From: an uncultured Akkermansia sp.
GTDB lineage: Bacteria > Verrucomicrobiota > Verrucomicrobiia > Verrucomicrobiales > Akkermansiaceae
Assembly: GCA_949296365.1 (NCBI GenBank)
Contig: CASFPZ010000001.1
Location: forward strand, 1-64,000
DNA length: 64,000 bases
Direction of reading: 5' to 3'
Made by a program: the position numbers and the translations under genes. A model generated the notes under the pieces. It did no database searches, was not told the DNA's origin, and saw nothing but the letters and a program-made list of their open reading frames with translations. Of this stretch, positions 23,337-33,856 are shown one piece after another (positions within the stretch are counted from its first letter, which is position 1; each line of letters opens with the position of its first letter).

Positions 23337-23669
23337 CTACCAAAAGAGCAGTTGCTCAGGCATGGAAATTTCTCTCGGTGGTTGCGATTTCCCGTGAAAA
23401 ATATACATTTTGTCCCATTGGATGTTCGTAACAAACATGCAACGGACGGAGCCATCTGGCGGAACAATTTGTTTAATCCTACGCATATGCGTTAAAATCC
23501 GACTGTGAGTGACGCAGGGACGGGCATATACGCTGAATTGGATCATGAGGTATCCGTCGTCGAGCAATTGACGGCGAAAGGTTACATAGTTCTTTTTATC
23601 TTCCGGCGTAGTTGTCGGCAAGTCGAAGAAGACTAAGAGCCAACCCATTTTATAGTTGAGATTTTCCAT
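23337..23669 (-). CDS. cas2: CRISPR-associated endonuclease Cas2
   Basis: This 110-residue Cas2, starting MENLNYKMGWLLVFFDLP, has the first beta-strand with the Asp used for metal binding (FFDLPTTTPEDKK) and the family-typical RLLDDGYLMIQFSVY-like second helix-strand. It forms a dimer that joins two Cas1 dimers to integrate new spacers. The start at 23669 fits the family; the frame is open to 23723 but that part overlaps cas1. The overlap with cas1 (23633-23669) implies translational coupling. It is the last gene of the cas9-cas1-cas2 order typical of subtype II-C. Confidence 0.9.
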   Translation of the reverse strand: MENLNYKMGWLLVFFDLPTTTPEDKKNYVTFRRQLLDDGYLMIQFSVYARPCVTHSRILTHMRRIKQIVPPDGSVRCMFVTNIQWDKMYIFHGKSQPPREISMPEQLLFW

Positions 23670-24571
23670 GGTTGATAAGGGCCGGACTTTTGCTGGAGAA
23701 CGGCTTGACGGAATGTGCGGCAAACGGCTTCGATTGCTTGTCGTAAGGTCATTTGCTTGTCATGATAAGTGACTTCTGCAAGCAAGGTCTTAGCAATGTG
23801 TTGGCGATAGTTTTTGGTGATGACGCCAATTGGCGAGTCGTCTGTTGGCTGAAGCTTTTCTTGTTCAACCCATCGTGCGACGTTTGCCTCGAAGGCGGAT
23901 CGAAATGGTTCCATGAGATCGTAAGCTAACGGGGCTGCGTGTTCACGAGGTCGGTGAAAGAGGCCTAAACTGGGATCAATACCTAACGCAAATAAGTATT
24001 GAAGAATACAAGATAGCAAGATGGCATAAGCGTAATTGAACAGGGGATTCACCCCTTCGCCTTTGCGGTCGCGGCGAAACGAAGAAGTTGTCCAAGTATC
24101 GGCAAAGATGCCCCAAAAGAGGCGTGCACATTCTGCTTCTCGAGAGCTTTTAGCTGATTGTGCTAAACGTTTTAGCTCCGGGAGATTTTCATGGCGAGGA
24201 TTCCAAGATTCTGCCAGGATGGCTTGATTTGAGCATTTGGCGTCTAGCGTTTTTTCCCAGAGGCGTTTGCGAAGCGTTGTTGGCATATCTGCCAAATGCC
24301 TAAGCAGGGGTGTATCCGTTGCCCGGTCAGCCGGTAGAAGTAGAGCTGCTGGTTTATAATGTTCACATAATACAAAACCAATCCTATGTTTAGCCATTTC
24401 AATGAGCAAGTTACTCGATAAAGTGGCCTCAAAGGCGCACAAAACGACTGCGCCTATATCTTCCAACGGCAGACACTTGGGTGGAGACAACCCGTCTGTA
24501 TACTCAAGTTGGCCGTGATGGCAAGTCAATCGGCAACTATTGGTATCAATGTTGATGATGTGGTACGACAT
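23633..24571 (-). CDS. cas1: CRISPR-associated integrase Cas1
   Basis: This is a 312-residue Cas1 of the type II group, the catalytic subunit for spacer integration. The metal-binding triad is visible as Glu in GEGVNPLFNYAYAIL, His in GLFHRPREHAAPLAYDL and Asp/Glu in DLMEPFRSAFE. The N-terminal beta domain (MSYHIINIDTN to about 90) includes LPLEDIGAVVLC. It lies 12 bases after the cas9 stop and overlaps cas2. There is no csn2 or cas4 nearby, so the subtype is II-C. All expected residues are present, so spacer adaptation could still function even if cas9 is broken. Confidence 0.93.
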   Translation of the reverse strand: MSYHIINIDTNSCRLTCHHGQLEYTDGLSPPKCLPLEDIGAVVLCAFEATLSSNLLIEMAKHRIGFVLCEHYKPAALLLPADRATDTPLLRHLADMPTTLRKRLWEKTLDAKCSNQAILAESWNPRHENLPELKRLAQSAKSSREAECARLFWGIFADTWTTSSFRRDRKGEGVNPLFNYAYAILLSCILQYLFALGIDPSLGLFHRPREHAAPLAYDLMEPFRSAFEANVARWVEQEKLQPTDDSPIGVITKNYRQHIAKTLLAEVTYHDKQMTLRQAIEAVCRTFRQAVLQQKSGPYQPWKISTIKWVGS

Positions 24572-24583
24572 TGTTCTTAGCCT

Positions 24584-26377
24584 TTAGAGGATTTTCCCTG
24601 TGTATGAAGTATGGAGAATTTCTAGGTTATAGTCTTTAAGAAGAGTTTTTAATCTGACATCTTCCCAATAACCTGGATATGATTTATTATCCTTATTACA
24701 TATAAAATGAGGATATTGTAATTCCAATAAAATTCCCTTTTTTAGATTATCTTTAATCGAAACAACTTTCCATATGCCGTTTCGGCTGGGATTTTTGTCT
24801 GATTTCAGTTGGATTAATATCCCGTTTCTAATTATGCGAATAGGTTGTTTGTTGTTTTGTTTCTTAAGGGCAAGAATTTGGGCGAGTACGTTAACGTGTC
24901 GAATGATAGTCGGTTGAGGGTCGAGAGCGACTCCGTAATTACCAGAAATTACTTTAACAGCTTTTAACGGTTTTAATTTAGAATGTTTCCGGGTGAGAAT
25001 TCCTACTAATTTGTTGGCTTTACATTGATCATTTTTTGTTATTCTGGTTCTTTTGTCTTGTTGCACGGTTGAAGAACTAGAACGGATAGATACAACAGCA
25101 TTGGTTCCTTGGCCTTGGACATTGAGAACTCTCCAAAGAGTTTCTTCGAGCCTAGCTCCACTCATATCGGCTGGGATATGCCTGATTACGCGTTGTTCTT
25201 GCAAGACGCTTCGGATATTCTCTTTGAGTGGTTTGGGCAGATCCAGCAATTGAAGTCCCTGATCGGCTTTTAACGCGTAATGGCGTTTCAAAGGAAAGTC
25301 CCGAAATTGTTGCGCCATTTCCTGTCCCAAATGGCGGAGCTTAAGAGCCTGGCGAATCTGGAAATTCTGAGCACTGGGGATAAGATGCGGAATGAGGCCC
25401 AAAACACAGGCGTCGAGGGCGTGATGCATATGCGTATTTTCCCGAAGTACCGTTTTGTTGATATTTTTCGGATCGATACCAGGGCAAAAATCGCTTAAAC
25501 ACCCCAATACATTCCAGCATTTGCGAACCTGGCCTGTCAGTTCACCAGGAATCGTTTCGATGTGTACGTCGGGCAATAATTGACGCGCGACGCGAGAGGC
25601 TAGTTTCATCAGATGAGAACTCTGAGTCATCATTCCCTCGGTCATGTCTAACTGCTCTTGTGTTTGTTTTTTGTTTCGGATCCCTTGAATAAGTAATAAA
25701 TGTTGACGTTTTTCCTTTCTCTTTTTGTCGTCAGCATGTCCATTTCGCACATCAAGCTTCTTGTTAACGAATGTCAAATAAACATCTTTTGAGCAAATAG
25801 AAAGGTTTTCTTTTCCTGGAACGGTTTTGTTTTCGTCTTGCGTGATGAAGTCAAGCGCAGTTCGTTGACCCTTCATTTTGTTGACTTCTGGCCAGGTTAA
25901 CACAAGAGAGGCTAGGAAATTTGTTGGTCGATGTGAATAGGGGACGATGTGTTCTAATTCCATACGTTCCAGCTCGTGGGCATGGTATTGTTGCTGCGTG
26001 TAGGGACACGTCCAATCCATATCCATGGCAATACGGCATTTGCGGATCAAATTGGGATTAACTTGGATCTTATTATCTTCTAAATACGAGACTGCTTTCT
26101 TATGGCTTTCTAACCGCTTTTCAAGCTTCTTTTTTATTTCTTTAGCAGTCATTCCGGAAAACTCTGTTAGTTCCCGTCCTACTTCGATACAGAGTTGAGC
26201 AACATTCTCTGGAACGTTGTCGGCATATTCCTGGATCAAATCTTTCAGGAGTCGCGTGAAAATCAACATGCGGTGCCTGACTAAATGGTTGTTAGTCAGA
26301 GAATCGATGGGGCGTTTGCTCTGATAAAGATTGACTGTCGAATCGGGATCTAGCAAACAATACAAACAACCGTCTTG
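24584..26377 (-). CDS. cas9: Cas9 C-terminal portion: RuvC-II, HNH, RuvC-III, PAM-interacting domain
   Basis: This frame continues Cas9 in the -1 frame relative to the N-terminal part. It is open from the A6 tract to 24584, about 597 codons counted from 26377. In order: SLTNNHLVRHRMLIFTRLL, the RuvC-II glutamate in CIEVGRELTEF, the HNH nuclease (CPYTQQQY, then LEHIVPYSHRPTNF with the catalytic His, and EVNKMKG with the Asn), and RuvC-III HHALDACVLG. After these comes a basic wedge and PAM-interacting region to the end. All nuclease residues are intact. There is no ribosome site or conventional ATG before the first conserved residues; a TTG at 26365 is the only candidate. I therefore infer it is made only through a frameshift or that the split is a mutation or sequence error. 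Confidence 0.9.
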   Translation of the reverse strand, partial: QDGCLYCLLDPDSTVNLYQSKRPIDSLTNNHLVRHRMLIFTRLLKDLIQEYADNVPENVAQLCIEVGRELTEFSGMTAKEIKKKLEKRLESHKKAVSYLEDNKIQVNPNLIRKCRIAMDMDWTCPYTQQQYHAHELERMELEHIVPYSHRPTNFLASLVLTWPEVNKMKGQRTALDFITQDENKTVPGKENLSICSKDVYLTFVNKKLDVRNGHADDKKRKEKRQHLLLIQGIRNKKQTQEQLDMTEGMMTQSSHLMKLASRVARQLLPDVHIETIPGELTGQVRKCWNVLGCLSDFCPGIDPKNINKTVLRENTHMHHALDACVLGLIPHLIPSAQNFQIRQALKLRHLGQEMAQQFRDFPLKRHYALKADQGLQLLDLPKPLKENIRSVLQEQRVIRHIPADMSGARLEETLWRVLNVQGQGTNAVVSIRSSSSTVQQDKRTRITKNDQCKANKLVGILTRKHSKLKPLKAVKVISGNYGVALDPQPTIIRHVNVLAQILALKKQNNKQPIRIIRNGILIQLKSDKNPSRNGIWKVVSIKDNLKKGILLELQYPHFICNKDNKSYPGYWEDVRLKTLLKDYNLEILHTSYTGKIL

Positions 26378-27897
26378 TTTTTTGTTTTCCCCGTCGGGGT
26401 GTTGATCGCTTTGGGCGGGGCGAGTAGGGTCATACCTGCAAGGACTTCCCTAACGACTTGTTTGAGGACGGGTCGAGCATAGGGGGCTCTTCCTGTTGCG
26501 TTTTTGGGTATTAGTGGCGTTGTACCCCACGGTGTAGTCTGTTTCTTTTTATTCTTTTTCGATTCCTTTTCAATCAATCGTTCAAGTTGCTCTGTCGATC
26601 CTCCATGAGAACGCATTTGGTCGAGAAGATATTGCGGAGTACATGGTTTGCCGCGTCTTAGTCGGTTTAACGCGATGCGCTGTGCGCCTTGGGATAAGGT
26701 TTCCCATAAACCAGTGCGTTGTAGGACTTCGACCGCGGGATCGAGAACCAGGGCTTTCTCACTGTCAGGATGCAAAGTAAAATAATTTCCAATATTGGTT
26801 TCCTGATCTGGTGCCCAAGAGGAGACAATTTTTGAAAGAGACGAGGCTGTTAATTTCCCTTCTGTACGCGCTACCTCCATTAACTGTTGTCTTAACTTGG
26901 CGGGAAGAGGTTGAGAGCCAATGCGCAAATTGTTCAAAACACGCGCCATGCGATATTCATAATATTCTGGGGAATGGGCAGAAGGAACTTTTGCTAATTT
27001 ATCTGCCTGATGTTTGGCTTGTTCTTCTGTCAAGCCGTGTTGAAGGGAGTCCTCGTAGACATGAGCCCAGGTGATTGGGCATGAATTGATAATGCGGTTG
27101 TCGAATCTCGGGATGAGTTGGCCAAACAATAATCCTCCGTAGAACCGCTTGGGTAAACGAATCCCCCAAGCGGCAAGTTGTTCCCGTTGCCCTGCCTGCA
27201 AAGATTCGTCCTGGATGATGAAATTGATGACGTCCGAAGTCAATTGAGGGATTCCCGTCGCAGATTGCCTGAGAATTTGATGAACTTCGTCGTGGACGAT
27301 TGAACGCGGGAAGGCTGTGTTGAGCGTTTTATATGCTGGGGTATCTACTGGCCTCGGGACTTGGGTCCGGTCTGAGGCCAATCCTAATTCGCAGCAGATG
27401 GTTGCCGCCATGGTCTGTGTGCCGTGTTTTTCCATGAGGTCTTCAGCATGTTTGACCTTGTCATCTTCTTTCGTTTCGCCGGGATTTGTGTCGTTGCTCG
27501 ACCACAGAGCATTATTGTCGTATCCTCGATTGTGCGCATACCACCGTAAGACATGCCACAGTTCGACTGGGGATAGAACCCGATGCCCCTGCAAAGCTTC
27601 TGATGCCAAATAAAAAGGAGCTGGGTGTCCGGGAAGTTGAGACTCGTCTTCAGATATGATGCCAACGCCAATTAGTAATTTCGCCAGCCGTTCAATTCTG
27701 ACGCGACGCGAGCGAATGTTACGGCGCAATCGTCGATACTCCCTTCGTTTTGAAGCCAAACAGTCATCGCTAGGGAATAACACAACCCCACATCCTAAAA
27801 TTTTGGGATCCAACTCGGACGATAAAGCTGCTTGAACGACAGCCCAGCCGATAGAAGCATAACCTATGTCAAATGAAAATGTTAAGGGCGAATTCAT
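26350..27897 (-). CDS. cas9: Cas9 N-terminal portion: RuvC-I, bridge helix, REC lobe
   Basis: This is the first 515 residues of a type II-C Cas9, the RNA-guided double-strand DNA nuclease. RuvC-I is FDIGYASIGWAVV at residues 8-20 with the catalytic Asp. The arginine-rich bridge helix is RREYRRLRRNIRSRRVRIE near 50-70. The REC lobe follows (about 80-500). The frame runs out at TAG 26350-26352, 8 codons after an A AAA AAC heptamer. In the -1 frame the reading continues with QDGCLYCLLDPDSTV, which joins naturally to the RuvC-II half. The full product would be about 1104 residues, normal for II-C. On its own this half lacks HNH and two of three RuvC segments and could not cut DNA. Confidence 0.92.
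   Translation of the reverse strand: MNSPLTFSFDIGYASIGWAVVQAALSSELDPKILGCGVVLFPSDDCLASKRREYRRLRRNIRSRRVRIERLAKLLIGVGIISEDESQLPGHPAPFYLASEALQGHRVLSPVELWHVLRWYAHNRGYDNNALWSSNDTNPGETKEDDKVKHAEDLMEKHGTQTMAATICCELGLASDRTQVPRPVDTPAYKTLNTAFPRSIVHDEVHQILRQSATGIPQLTSDVINFIIQDESLQAGQREQLAAWGIRLPKRFYGGLLFGQLIPRFDNRIINSCPITWAHVYEDSLQHGLTEEQAKHQADKLAKVPSAHSPEYYEYRMARVLNNLRIGSQPLPAKLRQQLMEVARTEGKLTASSLSKIVSSWAPDQETNIGNYFTLHPDSEKALVLDPAVEVLQRTGLWETLSQGAQRIALNRLRRGKPCTPQYLLDQMRSHGGSTEQLERLIEKESKKNKKKQTTPWGTTPLIPKNATGRAPYARPVLKQVVREVLAGMTLLAPPKAINTPTGKTKNKTVVCIVC
26377..26383 (-). other. A AAA AAC heptamer at the cas9 frame junction
   Basis: In the zero frame of the N-terminal half the codons read ACA AAA AAC, so the string A AAA AAC is in the exact X XXY YYZ phase of -1 frameshift sites. 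A -1 slip here continues into the C-terminal half. No strong downstream stem or upstream ribosome-like stimulator is evident. The same six A would give a simple one-base indel in a homopolymer. Confidence 0.5.
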
Positions 27898-27970
27898 ATA
27901 TTAAGTCACTCTAAAGAAAAGCAGGAGAGAACGCAAGAAAACAAAAAAATAATTTTTCCAGGAAATTCTG

Positions 27971-27998
27971 TTGACATTAAAAGGAAAACAATGATAGT
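27971..27998 (+). promoter_or_regulatory. Promoter for tracrRNA
   Basis: A perfect -35 TTGACA (27971-27976) is followed 16 bases later by GATAGT (27993-27998). It places a start near 28005, just before the anti-repeat. It lies upstream of and divergent to cas9. Confidence 0.65.
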
Positions 27999-28004
27999 AA
28001 TACC

Positions 28005-28112
28005 TACGGATTCAAGATACAAAATTAGAAGCGCAAACCGTATCCCTGACTGCTAGTCAGTCACACCGGTAACAAGAGCGTTTAAGACCCGGGCTTCGGC
28101 TCGGGTTTTTCA
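28005..28112 (+). ncRNA. tracrRNA
   Basis: The anti-repeat is at 28008-28025. GGATTCAAG (28008-28016) is identical to the repeat interior, and AAAAT (28021-28025) matches the repeat end, with a 4-base internal bulge between. It therefore pairs with a crRNA read from the minus strand: 9 base pairs, bulge, then 5 base pairs. Next comes a small hairpin CTGACT-GCT-AGTCAG (28046-28060). A terminator closes it: CCCGGGC (28088-28094), UUCG loop, GCTCGGG (28099-28105), then five T. This is the geometry of type II tracrRNAs, which are needed for crRNA maturation by RNase III and for Cas9 loading. Confidence 0.85.
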
Positions 28113-28334
28113 TTGAATAGATTGGGAAGAAGGAGGCTAAAATCTTGGAAGGAAATTTTGTACACCATTATCCTGTAGCCGATGATTAACCAATAATATT
28201 CTATGGATTGATGGCTGCTTGATTCCATAGAAATATCTTATGACCCATTGAACTCAGTGATTGAGACTCCCGGTTTGTTAGGATTTTTCATGAGAGATGA
28301 ATTCGTGAAAAATCATTGGAATTAATTAATAATA

Positions 28335-28373
28335 AAAGCTTAGCATGATAATGGTTTTACCATGCTAAGCTTT
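28335..28373 (-). other. Inverted half-repeat and hairpin at the cas-proximal array end
   Basis: AAAGCTTAGCATG (28335-28347) is the exact reverse complement of CATGCTAAGCTTT (28361-28373) inside the first repeat, with a 13-base loop. Read on the minus strand it is the last element of the array transcript and is followed by TTTTATTATTAATT, so it could terminate the array transcript. It could also be the array-end signal used for integration. Confidence 0.6.
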
Positions 28374-29904
28374 GGATTCAAGGCAAAACCCAAAGCAGCC
28401 TATGCCATTGCCGCATGGGGTTTTACCATGCTAAGCTTTGGATTCAAGGCAAAACAATCACTTTGTGCAAGAAAAAGCTTGCACAGTTTTACCATGCTAA
28501 GCTTTGGATTCAAGGCAAAACCAGGGTGAGCCAGCGGCGGGGCATTACTTTGTTTTACCATGCTAAGCTTTGGATTCAAGGCAAAACTTTCGCGCATGAG
28601 TTCCTCCGCGCGGTTTTGTTTTACCATGCTAAGCTTTGGATTCAAGGCAAAACCTAGCCAACGATCGACCGTCTTCTTGCTAAGTTTTACCATGCTAAGC
28701 TTTGGATTCAAGGCAAAACAAGGGGGCGTCTTCCAAGACGGGGATGCCGGTTTTACCATGCTAAGCTTTGGATTCAAGGCAAAACTCACCTCGCTCGACC
28801 CAACGCTGGCCGACGGTTTTACCATGCTAAGCTTTGGATTCAAGGCAAAACTCCAACAGCTCAACGCACTGCAGCAGCGCTGTTTTACCATGCTAAGCTT
28901 TGGATTCAAGGCAAAACGCCAGCTTGATGACTGAGTATGTGTCAGCCGTTTTACCATGCTAAGCTTTGGATTCAAGGCAAAACCTAGAAGACTTCGTGAT
29001 CTACTACTCCGAAGTTTTACCATGCTAAGCTTTGGATTCAAGGCAAAACGCAGACAGTGGCACAACCGCACCTCCGTCAGTTTTACCATGCTAAGCTTTG
29101 GATTCAAGGCAAAACGTGGTACATGAGTAGGATGAAAAATAAACCGTTTTACCATGCTAAGCTTTGGATTCAAGGCAAAACGATTACCGTAACCAGCAAT
29201 GCAGACTGGGTTTTACCATGCTAAGCTTTGGATTCAAGGCAAAACTCATTGTTTAAGGATCTGAACATCTTATACGTTTTACCATGCTAAGCTTTGGATT
29301 CAAGGCAAAACGTCTCGGATCGGTATCCCGCGGACATCGAGGTTTTACCATGCTAAGCTTTGGATTCAAGGCAAAACAACCAGGCTGACTACTCGACGCT
29401 CACCCTGGTTTTACCATGCTAAGCTTTGGATTCAAGGCAAAACCGAAAGGCACCAAAACCAAAAAACCACAAAGTTTTACCATGCTAAGCTTTGGATTCA
29501 AGGCAAAACTCGCAGCTGAATTGGCCGTCAAAGTCTCCGGTTTTACCATGCTAAGCTTTGGATTCAAGGCAAAACTCAGTGAGATTCATAATGTATCAGC
29601 CTTGGGTTTTACCATGCTAAGCTTTGGATTCAAGGCAAAACCGGCGGGATCTTTATCGAGTCAGAAAAAGGTTTTACCATGCTAAGCTTTGGATTCAAGG
29701 CAAAACTGAGTCTTTGTCTCAGGCTGTAGCGGAGTTGTTTTACCATGCTAAGCTTTGGATTCAAGGCAAAACGATCCCCCATGTGATCCTTTCGCTCCTT
29801 GTGTTTTACCATGCTAAGCTTTGGATTCAAGGCAAAACCTTTCAAGGCTTCCTTCGGGCTCCGGCTTTGTTTTACCACGCTAAGCTTTGGATTCAAGACA
29901 AAAC
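28354..29904 (-). CRISPR. Type II-C CRISPR array, 24 repeats and 23 spacers
   Basis: Repeats are 36 bp, beginning GTTTTACCATGC and ending AAGGCAAAAC on the plus strand. I count 24 starts from 28354 to 29869. The period is 66 bp except one 28-base spacer (29182-29209) and one 29-base spacer (29642-29670); all others are 30. Repeats look identical except the last (29869-29904), which has two substitutions. The tracrRNA anti-repeat shows that crRNA is the minus strand. In that orientation each repeat ends ATGGTAAAAC, which resembles the extended -10 element embedded in Campylobacter II-C repeats, so each spacer may have its own promoter. No spacer source could be tested. Confidence 0.97.
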
Positions 29905-30014
29905 TGTTCGAGCGCTACATTCCGGGGTCTGTTTCGAATCCGCTGGTAAAAACATTGCCGAAGTTTGAGGAAGAGATAGGGTACGTTGAAGAGTCCACAG
30001 GTCTTGGATTGGAT

Positions 30015-30185
30015 CCGAGATAGAGTAGCATGGCTGACTCGATCTTGCCATTGTTGACTCCATAGCGAAACGAGTTAACTACCTCCTTGAGGTTCCTGAG
30101 AAGCCCTTGGGCAAATCGTTTTAAGGGCCCTATTTCACTTGCTTGGGCCATTCCCAGATCTCGCGAAACTTTTCTTTAAGCACAT
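30015..30185 (-). pseudogene. ISL3-type transposase remnant
   Basis: Two short frames on the minus strand together resemble the C-terminal part of an ISL3-family transposase. LKEKFREIWEWPKQVK ends at a stop near 30132. In a shifted frame, SEIGPLKRFAQGLLRNLKEV and NNGKIES follow. Stops and a frameshift break it and no ends or transposase core remain. It sits immediately beyond the array, between it and an orphan repeat. Confidence 0.5.
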
Positions 30186-30222
30186 AATCTGATCCTTTCC
30201 CTCGGCGGTGGTCGTCAGTACC

Positions 30223-30705
30223 TTAGGGATGACCGGGGCAGTCGTACTCAGTCCATGAGATCAAACCATCGATGTGCGCCTCGGTAGTTATTTCGTGGGT
30301 TGCATCACCTGATTCGATGGCTTTGAGGTCCTCTTTTAGCCATTTGTCGAGCTTGATAAGATCATAGTCGCTAATATGCCCGATGATACCATCATACCGT
30401 ACGCCGTCGACCACGACATGAGCCATGAGGTTGCCTGCCTGGATCTCTGCGCCGGCGAGGACAAATTTGATGCATTTTCGCATTGAGGCTGGGTATTTTT
30501 GCGTATTGTCAAGCATTATGGCGTAGTCGATGACTAGCTCCCATTCAACCGGGTTTTCTTGTGTCAAAGGGTGGATCGGCCATTGATCTTTAGGGATCAG
30601 CTCGAGGGCATAGCAACCTGCAGCGGCATCGACGATGCTGTCGTCGATTTCAGGCAGCCAAATTTGCTGCGTGTCGTCTTGAGGCGAAAATAGGATATTT
30701 TTCAT
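30223..30705 (-). CDS. Hypothetical protein beside the CRISPR array
   Basis: This is a 160-residue acidic protein, MKNILFSPQDD to YDCPGHP, with no signal peptide or membrane helix. The middle (WELVIDYAIMLDNTQK, IKFVLAGAEIQAGNLMAH) suggests an alpha/beta fold, but I recognise no family. The reading frame is clean and codon use looks coding. Its start lies about 40 bases downstream (minus strand) of a solitary CRISPR repeat whose end resembles an extended -10, so that repeat may be its promoter. It could be cargo of a lost mobile element, a CRISPR accessory gene, or an unrelated gene; only position links it to the CRISPR locus. Confidence 0.55.
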   Translation of the reverse strand: MKNILFSPQDDTQQIWLPEIDDSIVDAAAGCYALELIPKDQWPIHPLTQENPVEWELVIDYAIMLDNTQKYPASMRKCIKFVLAGAEIQAGNLMAHVVVDGVRYDGIIGHISDYDLIKLDKWLKEDLKAIESGDATHEITTEAHIDGLISWTEYDCPGHP

Positions 30706-30744
30706 TGCCTGTGTCTGAGGGGGGGAGTTGTTATGCTTTATTTT

Positions 30745-30780
30745 GTTTTACCATGCTAAGTTTTGGATTAACGGATAAAG
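30745..30780 (-). repeat. Solitary degenerate CRISPR repeat
   Basis: A 36-base stretch begins GTTTTACCATGCTAAG and matches the array repeat at about 30 of 36 positions, with differences at positions 17, 26, 28, 31, 32 and 36. It lies 840 bases past the end of the array and no second repeat is at the array period. It is the relic of an array end or of an integration at a repeat-like site. Confidence 0.85.
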
Positions 30781-31029
30781 CGTTTTCTCTTGGAAATATT
30801 TGATTTACAAATTGTTAAGCGATATTTTTTTCTTACCCTCAAAGATGCGCGGGAGTGAATTTCCTGAGAGAAAAATCTGGCCTGGAGTTTGAATTGGTAA
30901 AAAAATTTGCTGACGCCTGATGATTCTTCGATGGATTTTGGAGGAAGGGTGACGGAGCCAGGAAAAATAGGAGGGATAGGCGTGTGTGGGTTTAAGTGAG
31001 TTACAGAAATGGTTCCCTTCTTTGTTTTT
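30781..31029. other. Intergenic, nothing recognised
   Basis: No supportable frame or RNA is visible. The only pattern noted is a T-rich run near 30824-30834. The stem-loop after it is listed separately. Confidence 0.4.
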
Positions 31030-31061
31030 CCCCGCCCTCCTGCTTGACTGGAGGGCAGGGG
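31030..31061 (-). terminator. Long GC stem-loop after the autotransporter gene
   Basis: CCCCGCCCTCC (31030-31040) pairs with GGAGGGCAGGGG (31050-31061) with one bulged A. It lies about 35 bases downstream of the gene ending at 31097. The U tract is lacking on the minus strand, so it may only protect the 3' end. Confidence 0.45.
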
Positions 31062-31096
31062 AAGGTTGATTTAGGAAGAAATTCCCTAAGTTTTAT

Positions 31097-33856
31097 TTAG
31101 AATGAGTACCCTACACCAATGCTGCAGGATTGTTGCAGGGTATCGCTCCGGGCTTCAAGTTGATACGAACAGGAAACGTCCCAGGCTGTCGATAAAGCTA
31201 AACGACTGAAGACACCGACGCGAACTGCATTGCGAGCAGAATCGCTACCGTGGACATCCCAGGCGAATCCGTTGAAATTGGCGCTGGTTTCTGCACGATG
31301 CCGATAGATGTCTGGTAGGTAATGAATAGACACGGAATTGTGCCAGGGATTGCCGTTAGGCAAGGTGAAGACCTTGGACAGAGAAACACCAATAGGCAGA
31401 GCCAAGTTACGGAAATGGCCGCGATCAAAGCGTCTGGTAATATCCTGAGTTTCTCGGAAGGCTTCTTGGCGGACATCCGTGTATTCTAAACCAATTGACG
31501 GAGAGAGGACATAATTGTCTTTTAAGGCAATATGCCATGTTGCCTGGAAGATTCCCGAATAAGACAGGTTGTTCCAATCTCCGTTGGCATGTTGACCATC
31601 TGGGAACGTTGTGTCCAAATCATTGTAAGTGGATCCATAGGCGATAGCGCCGCTGATGGCAATGCTGTGTTGGTTGTTCAATTTTCGAAACCAAACAGTG
31701 TCGATTAAGCCCATAATCGAGTCTTGAGTATTGGTTGAGGCGTAGTCTCGCCCAATATTTTTCCCAAACATTTGCCCCAATGCTGCGCCGACCGTCCATT
31801 CTGAAGCTACTCGATAGTTGACACCTAAGGCATATCCGCCACCCTGATAATCGAAACCTTCGGTGCTACCTTGGCTCCGTTGCATGGTGAATCCCCCTAA
31901 CCCGCTGAGCCAGACAGCAGCTTTGCCGCGTTCTAGGAATCGGTAGAAATCTAATTGGTTTAGAGCAATATCGGAGAGAGATTTCATGTTGGCAGCAGAG
32001 GACAACATCGAATTAGCCGTGCTTGTGCCAACCATGTAGTCAGCTACCCCGATCGGCTGGATGTCTTGGGGATTGAGTATGAGTTCCCAAATATCCTCGT
32101 CTTGAAGGTAATTCCATGACGTTGACAACGCATAGATGACACCATCGTCAGAAAAGGAACTTGTTTCGGGAGAAATGCCTTCTTCTTTGGATCTGATTTG
32201 AAGTAAATCTGTATCAGTCGAAACAGACTTCCAATCGCCCGAAAGTTGGAGATCTCCCGAAAGCGAAAATTGTCCGCCACTTTCGAGGTAGACAGGTTTC
32301 ATACCGGGATCTAGTTGGATTTGCAGGTTGTTCAAGGAAATATCCCCGTTTGCTACTAATGAGGCCCCATTCCCCATGGTTAAAACTCCTCCCTGCTGAG
32401 AGTAGGAGTCTGTCTGAATAGCAGCCAAGTGGTCGATTCGGACCGTCCCTCCGTATTGAAGAGTTTCCCCGGTCAAATAGGAGGTTAGATTTTCAGGGTT
32501 GCTTGTATCAACATATTCCCCTGAAAAGAGAATTGTCCCTTCTCTCCCATCAGCATTCAGATGAATTGTGGATTCCGGGATTCCTTCTGGTGTATCTCCC
32601 ACAACTACTGGATCGTACAGAGCTAAGGTCCGTCCGGTTGAAGCTTGAAAATGAATATCCATATTCGGACCGATATACATGGCGTTGGCTTGGGACAAAG
32701 TTCCGTCGCTTACCATGTTCCCGCGAAAGATGATATCGCCGTAATCGGCTGAGAGACGGACAAAGCTTCGTTCGGTCTGGTCATCTTTAGGATCTGGAGC
32801 TACATAGAGGGCACCTGCACTGCCGCCTGTATTATCAGTAAAAAGCACATCACCATGAACGTTCGAGATCTCAAGGTTACAAACGTCGCCAATTAATAAC
32901 AGACCACCGCAACCGGAGGCCTTGTTGCCGGTAATGTTCACTGATCCATCGACATTCGTGATCGAAATGTTGGCGTTGCCGGTAAACAGGCCGTACCCAC
33001 CCTGGGTACTTCCAGCCATGGCTACCACAATCCCATAGGCATCTATATCATTGTTTGCAAGGGTAATGCCCTGGCCAATATTGTTCATCGTGATCGTCGC
33101 TTCTCCGCGCCCGCCATTGTACGTAAACAAAAGCCCAGACACTCCCATGTATGACTTGTGTTGGACATTGTTGGAGAGTTCAATTCCGCCCGCAATATCC
33201 CTTAAAATGATACGCGCATTGCTGGAGTTTTCCCTTTGCGGATAAGTTGAGGCATTCAACCCAAGGGTATAAAACATGTTGCGTACGTTCTCTGCCGAGT
33301 TGTCGGTAATGGATAAGCGACCTCCAACCCGTTCAATGAGAATCGTCGCATCATAATCTCGAGACCCGCTGACTAATACGGTAGAATCTTCAAGGTTGGC
33401 CCCGCGAAATCCCGATATACTTACATCGCCGGATATGTCGGATATTGTCAGCATGGCGTTGCTCTGTTGCCCTTCTATATGTATGGCACTTACCCATGAC
33501 GATGAATAATCAGCTCCTTCGGCGCTAAAGGATAATTCAGATAATTGCTTTAAGGTTACATAAGTTTCACTAATACCCCCCCCCGTATCGGAGTCACGGC
33601 AAACAAGGTCGATCATCGCCTCATTCTGATCAGGTTTGCCAGTTGCTTGAAAATGGAGGGCATATTGGCCTTGCCCATCTATGGTGAAATCGATTCGCTG
33701 GACATCAGAGATGTTGCCCTGATACCAGGAATTGATGTTTGTGGTATCCTCTTGGAGGGTAATGTTGGTTGACTCAGAGATAAGAGTTGTTTCTGCCTGA
33801 GCGGACATTGCCGCCAAAAGGCAGGAAAACAAGATTCGTGGTAATCTAGCTTTCAT
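31097..33856 (-). CDS. Autotransporter (type V secretion) protein
   Basis: This 919-residue outer-membrane protein has a signal peptide (MKARLPRILFSCLLAAMSAQA). The passenger (about 40-600) is built of beta-helix-like repeats with motifs such as ISDISGDVSISG, VGGRLSITDNSAEN, GGIELSNNVQ, NITGNKASGCGG and VHGDVLFTDNTGGSAGALY. An autotransporter beta-barrel of about 270 residues forms the C-terminus, starting near FLERGKAAVWLSGLGGFTM and ending with the aromatic SIGVGYSF, the usual barrel signature. Such PMP/Akkermansia-type proteins are surface displayed and often mediate adhesion. No protease or lipase motif is seen. The gene is monocistronic with a stem-loop downstream. Confidence 0.86.
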   Translation of the reverse strand: MKARLPRILFSCLLAAMSAQAETTLISESTNITLQEDTTNINSWYQGNISDVQRIDFTIDGQGQYALHFQATGKPDQNEAMIDLVCRDSDTGGGISETYVTLKQLSELSFSAEGADYSSSWVSAIHIEGQQSNAMLTISDISGDVSISGFRGANLEDSTVLVSGSRDYDATILIERVGGRLSITDNSAENVRNMFYTLGLNASTYPQRENSSNARIILRDIAGGIELSNNVQHKSYMGVSGLLFTYNGGRGEATITMNNIGQGITLANNDIDAYGIVVAMAGSTQGGYGLFTGNANISITNVDGSVNITGNKASGCGGLLLIGDVCNLEISNVHGDVLFTDNTGGSAGALYVAPDPKDDQTERSFVRLSADYGDIIFRGNMVSDGTLSQANAMYIGPNMDIHFQASTGRTLALYDPVVVGDTPEGIPESTIHLNADGREGTILFSGEYVDTSNPENLTSYLTGETLQYGGTVRIDHLAAIQTDSYSQQGGVLTMGNGASLVANGDISLNNLQIQLDPGMKPVYLESGGQFSLSGDLQLSGDWKSVSTDTDLLQIRSKEEGISPETSSFSDDGVIYALSTSWNYLQDEDIWELILNPQDIQPIGVADYMVGTSTANSMLSSAANMKSLSDIALNQLDFYRFLERGKAAVWLSGLGGFTMQRSQGSTEGFDYQGGGYALGVNYRVASEWTVGAALGQMFGKNIGRDYASTNTQDSIMGLIDTVWFRKLNNQHSIAISGAIAYGSTYNDLDTTFPDGQHANGDWNNLSYSGIFQATWHIALKDNYVLSPSIGLEYTDVRQEAFRETQDITRRFDRGHFRNLALPIGVSLSKVFTLPNGNPWHNSVSIHYLPDIYRHRAETSANFNGFAWDVHGSDSARNAVRVGVFSRLALSTAWDVSCSYQLEARSDTLQQSCSIGVGYSF

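Follow-up and report, generated by a model that had tools for sequence, protein, structure and literature searches.

The locus considered here raises the question of how a single CRISPR repeat came to lie 840 bases beyond the last repeat of a type II-C array, and whether that repeat now serves as the promoter of a protein-coding gene. The array is found in a window, the whole stretch of DNA analysed, of 64,000 nucleotides from an uncultured Akkermansia species. In the best explanation of this arrangement, which is given roughly even odds (a probability of about 0.5), the former first repeat of the array has been stranded and its promoter now probably transcribes a gene of 160 codons. The features on which the argument draws are collected in Table 1.

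Table 1. Features of the CRISPR locus and of the DNA beyond its oldest end (positions are those of the window).
Feature	Position	Strand	Remarks
cas2 (type II)	23337-23723	-	TIGR01573; PADLOC Cas2_II
cas1 (type II)	23633-24571	-	TIGR03639
cas9, second part	24584-26365	-	HNH domain
cas9, first part	26350-27897	-	Frameshift near 26355
tracrRNA	28008-28111	+	Contains anti-repeat GGATTCAAGATACAAAAT, stem-loops and a terminator; relatives conserve it upstream of cas9
Leader-end hairpin	28335-28373	-	Inverted copy of the repeat's 3' half in the leader
Type II-C CRISPR array	28354-29904	-	24 repeats, 23 spacers; minus-strand crRNAs
Present first (oldest) array repeat	29869-29904	-	34/36
Gap between IS terminus and present first repeat	29905-29924	-	20 nt
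Truncated ISL3-family remnant	29925-30188	-	One IS terminus (29925) and the end of a transposase gene; no second terminus
ORF overlapping ISL3 remnant	29915-30151	-	C-terminal residues of transposase
160-codon gene	30223-30705	-	Host-like codon usage; no relatives found
Extended -10-like element TGG TAAAAC	30745-30753	-	3' end of orphan repeat; predicted promoter
Orphan repeat	30745-30780	-	30/36 against array consensus; crRNA strand CTTTATCCGTTAATCCAAAACTTAGCATGGTAAAAC

Organization of the CRISPR locus

The array consists of 36-nt repeats, 23 of the 24 being identical, separated by spacers of 28-30 nt. Cas9 was identified by a match to the profile TIGR01865. The locus belongs to type II-C: its cas genes are cas9, cas1 and cas2 only, with Cas1 and Cas2 of type II, and its tracrRNA carries an anti-repeat to the local repeat; the absence of csn2 and cas4 is judged from the lack of any further long open reading frame between cas2 and nadB. 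The nearest named matches of Cas1 are from A. muciniphila (65%) and A. glycaniphila (60%). The cas9 gene occupies two frames that overlap at 26350-26365, while in relatives a single frame runs across the same point. A run of six A residues (AAACAAAAAAC) lies just ahead of the break, so that either a recent mutation or an error in sequencing may account for the split.

Because the repeat ends resemble a -10 element, the array is read on the minus strand towards cas9, with its oldest end at 29904. The end at which new spacers are added is marked by perfect last repeats and by the leader hairpin. Both the array and the tracrRNA lie upstream of cas9 in the window (24584-29904); in close relatives only the tracrRNA is found there and the array lies downstream of cas2, so the locus in the window has been rearranged. 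One spacer, TGTGCAAGCTTTTTCTTGCACAAAGTGATT (28456-28485), opens with a perfect 8-bp hairpin that could impair the guide made from it. No array spacer matches the window or the interval 29905-30744 within eight mismatches, and a spacer match near 30.2-30.7 kb, which the preliminary description had proposed to look for, is thus not found. The array gave no match in a phage collection, and its oldest and newest spacers have no exact match in IMG/VR.

The leader hairpin has a predicted energy of -22.2 kcal/mol (z -5.5), and its sequence changes along with that of the local repeat across loci. At least ten consecutive paired bases between a leader and its own repeat are present at 20 of 59 distinct loci, compared with 13 of 3422 cross-pairings. 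An inverted copy in the leader is also seen in L064, L066, L104, L105, L108, L110, L111, L113 and L115, and further in L116, L117, L121, L123, L131, L132, L154 and L165. Candidate roles for the hairpin are a terminator, an acquisition signal or control of the outward promoter of the last repeat; one literature search turned up nothing published on a hairpin of this kind at the acquisition end of II-C arrays.

The separated repeat

On the crRNA strand the orphan repeat, CTTTATCCGTTAATCCAAAACTTAGCATGGTAAAAC, agrees with the array consensus, GTTTTGCCTTGAATCCAAAGCTTAGCATGGTAAAAC, at 30 of 36 positions and has the orientation of the array, 840 bases beyond the repeat at 29869-29904. The isolated repeat of about 30/36 identity in the preliminary description is genuine: in 60 random 64-kb sequences with the composition of the window, the best match was 27/36 and most were 21-23. 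An intact 15-mer of the orphan, TTTTACCATGCTAAG, occurs 24 times in the 2.67-Mb genome, 23 times in the array and once in the orphan itself. The minus-strand reading of the crRNAs places the orphan at the oldest-spacer (5') side of the array.

The six changes in the orphan, at positions 1, 5, 6, 9, 11 and 20, are unevenly placed. Five fall within the first 15 nt (hypergeometric P = 0.035), whereas the last 16, positions 21-36, are perfect (P = 0.020). The predicted pairing with the tracrRNA anti-repeat is -8.6 kcal/mol, compared with -16.4 kcal/mol for the consensus. These features support the view that the orphan is a worn but genuine CRISPR repeat displaced from the array end.

Related II-C loci, counted together with the present first repeat of the window, show a similar distribution in their first repeats: 26 of 33 changes lie in the first 15 nt (binomial P = 1.6 × 10-5 if changes are independent; the first repeats of L113 and L168 were omitted owing to an indel or unclear alignment). 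Only one change falls in the -10 hexamer, and the last repeats are almost all perfect. The same bias has been reported for 364 II-C arrays, with the suggestion that the first repeat must keep the promoter for the first spacer (Feussner et al., 2025; PMC12080349).

The far array repeat had been called degenerate; it is indeed changed, but only mildly, at repeat positions 7 and 27 of the crRNA strand. The C-to-T change at position 7 is common to this repeat and the first repeat of L064 (4758-4793), and in the window it strengthens, rather than weakens, the predicted pairing with the local tracrRNA. As the present first repeat is predicted to pair at -18.8 kcal/mol and the orphan at -8.6 kcal/mol, it is the orphan that bears the mark of a long-standing first repeat, as if the present one had become first only recently. 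The orphan is most likely the former first repeat of the neighbouring array, cut off from an array that has since been shortened.

Comparison with known repeat arrangements

The orphan resembles the extra repeat of II-C arrays (PMC12080349) in lying on the oldest-spacer side in array orientation, in having its changes concentrated in the first 15 nt with correspondingly weaker pairing to the tracrRNA, and in keeping its promoter end. An extra repeat is normally still attached, adjoining and driving the oldest spacer, whereas the orphan faces a protein gene. Because 840 bases and that gene separate it from the array, it can be at most a former extra repeat. In the repeat-internal promoters of Campylobacter jejuni (PMC3656092) the -10 element likewise lies in the 3' part of the repeat and transcription proceeds into the next unit; those promoters make crRNA, while the next unit after the orphan is a protein-coding gene and its promoter is a predicted one.

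No separated repeat was found in the other related II-C loci in which the 5' end of the array lies inside the contig, among the 42 loci counted with the window, the length of flank seen varying from locus to locus. A split array in L109 is only apparent and is caused by runs of N. A genus-wide pattern search for solitary repeat 3' ends returned matches at about the level of a reversed control, with a pattern that excluded the base before GGCA in several repeats. The expectation that the same gene and orphan would recur beside the II-C arrays of relatives was not borne out.

The interval between the array and the orphan

The DNA adjoining the array contains, as first described, a fragment of an ISL3-type transposase (NF033550, E = 4 × 10-5, a score that falls short of the cut-off for whole proteins since the match is to a fragment; Pfam PF01610, E = 0.002), and its DNA copies elsewhere in the genome pass PF01610. 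The fragment shares 85-97% DNA identity with many other genomic fragments. Most of about 20 of these start at the same base of the terminus GGGTCTGTTTC as the window copy at 29925, which is a true IS end. The element is not intact: one terminus and a C-terminal part of a transposase with homology to the ISL3 family are all that is present. The terminus sits 20 nt outside the present first repeat, and these 20 nt are possibly the rest of a 30-nt spacer; they have no exact match in the viral contigs of IMG/VR.

The preliminary interpretation is borne out in part, by the displaced array-end repeat, by the position of the IS terminus and by the intact promoter end of the orphan that faces the gene; a simple IS insertion that split the array is not supported. 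Searches for a second IS end or a target duplication by the orphan or the gene found none, and there is no repeat remnant between the array and the orphan (the best score is 17/36). A single clean insertion that split the array is rejected, as both ends and matching flanks are missing.

ISL3-like fragments number about 20 in the whole genome (G000; also L002-L008), most of them with the exact terminus. Short, internally deleted elements that by their appearance have both ends are seen in L007 (about 655 bp) and L005 (about 470 bp) and are perhaps MITE-like.

The 160-codon gene

The 160-residue gene previously noted between the array and the orphan has gene-like codon usage, scoring 0.167 per codon, where the other genes of the window score 0.153 ± 0.048; only 0.3% of wrong-frame pieces score as high. 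On account of this codon usage it is probably a real gene. No relative was found in 76 genomes of the genus or 387 of the phylum, nor in GTDB contigs, phages, plasmids or IMG/VR, the contig searches reaching close relatives only, and gene-family searches gave no significant match. A wide distribution of the gene away from CRISPR loci, which would have counted against the earlier proposal, is accordingly not seen. For the flanking DNA (30200-31400) the genus offers no match from which an empty site could be reconstructed. Single-sequence structure prediction for the protein was too poor to use (pLDDT 44.6). The gene is not preceded by a Shine-Dalgarno sequence, a point against the best explanation, but only five of the 29 genes in the window have one.

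The orphan repeat as a putative promoter

The repeats of the window end in the extended -10 sequence TGGTAAAAC, which is identical in all array repeats and intact in the orphan. As the preliminary description had it, this end of the orphan faces the gene, 40 nt before the start codon. The extended -10-like end is conserved across close relatives: on the crRNA strand their repeats start GTTTTGCCTTGAATCC and end TGGTACAAT, TGCTACAAT or GTACAGT, and in most close relatives the last six bases are TACAAT, TACAGT or TACAAC, with TGG, TGC or CAG ahead of them. In C. jejuni a -10 box occupies the same 3' part of the repeat (Dugar et al., 2013; PMC3656092). A start 7-8 nt after TAAAAC, predicted near 30737, would give a leader of about 30 nt.

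A simple sigma-70 scan called no other promoter just upstream of the gene start. It does not call the orphan site, since it demands a T at the last -10 position, where the array repeats here have none either. In the orphan the -35-like part is weaker, reading GTTAAT in place of TTGAAT, and this counts against the promoter reading, as does the fact that the promoter half was already under constraint while the repeat formed the array end. Judged from sequence, it is plausible that the orphan now acts as the promoter of the 160-codon gene. Because an intact promoter half is equally expected after a recent separation, however, such a takeover is rated at just under an even chance.

As no terminator was found between 29850 and 31100, a transcript could cross the IS remnant and enter the array, and an extraneous crRNA might then arise from the repeat at 29869. 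A hairpin formed by the IS terminus with the present first repeat, considered as a block to such a crRNA, is no better than in shuffled sequences (z -0.24) and is rejected; a suggestive hairpin of this kind had appeared in one fold.

Alternative explanations

The orphan could instead be a plain fossil, an array-end repeat left behind by rearrangement and without a present role, with the gene silent or served by another promoter. Repeat decay and array loss are common at the old end, and the weakened -35-like part, an arrangement that is not conserved and a single nearby transposase remnant that is itself broken all fit this explanation. It accounts less well for a promoter half that is intact at 16 of 16 positions against six changes in the other 20, for an orientation and distance that suit a promoter and for the absence of any other called promoter-like site just upstream of the gene. 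A plain fossil is a serious contender, although on the whole somewhat doubtful.

Phages carry solitary repeats that act as RNA anti-CRISPRs (PMC10651486), and the orphan, likewise a single repeat outside an array, could be of this Racr-like type, carried by a mobile element with the gene as a candidate inhibitor. A 160-codon gene without known relatives beside an IS remnant would be in keeping with this. The orphan differs from the known cases in that no viral context was found and in its position, at the end of an array that belongs to the host. The damage also lies in the half that pairs with tracrRNA, which would make it a poor mimic (-8.6 against -16.4 kcal/mol), and the gene has no phage or plasmid relatives. 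This explanation is very improbable.

Slightly less credible still is that the orphan represents a tracrRNA anti-repeat or a second tracrRNA. Repeat-like sequences that stand alone beside an array are often anti-repeats, and the plus strand of the orphan is predicted to pair with the crRNA repeat at -24.9 kcal/mol. That strand has no comparable stems and no terminator (-11.8 kcal/mol for 111 nt), while a clear tracrRNA with both, conserved upstream of cas9, is present elsewhere in the locus; a second tracrRNA is largely refuted by these observations. Chance resemblance to a repeat is refuted by the random-sequence scores, and the orphan moreover shares the orientation of the array and adjoins its end.

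A possible history of the locus

The stranded first repeat with a promoter that probably serves the gene may be accounted for as follows. The orphan would be the old first, or 'extra', repeat of the II-C array in the window. In arrays of this type the promoter in the 3' part of each repeat transcribes the next spacer, and the 5' half of a first repeat, since it never contributes to a useful crRNA, decays, in contrast to the promoter half, which is retained. At a later stage the oldest array units may have been lost or moved, and an ISL3 element would have entered the old array end, to be cut short and linked to the DNA that holds the 160-codon gene. The repeat left behind would then have come to face the gene and would probably supply its transcription, on a transcript that may continue through the IS remnant into the array. 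The missing target duplication and second IS end count against this history, and the finding of gene and orphan together in no relative counts against the best explanation as a whole.

Significance

The history put forward in the preliminary description is broadly right. The fossil-repeat part of it is ordinary II-C array biology, and only the promoter takeover would be new; no comparable case was found in the literature searched. That the promoter of a CRISPR repeat has been exapted for a protein-coding gene, with a transcript running into the host's array, and that decay of II-C array ends can thereby create gene promoters, is offered tentatively, at somewhat less than even odds. If the promoter role is true, II-C arrays, with repeats that are portable promoters, can seed the regulation of neighbouring genes when old array ends break up. 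If it is false, the locus still illustrates the first-repeat rule, by which the half that pairs with tracrRNA decays and the promoter half is kept.
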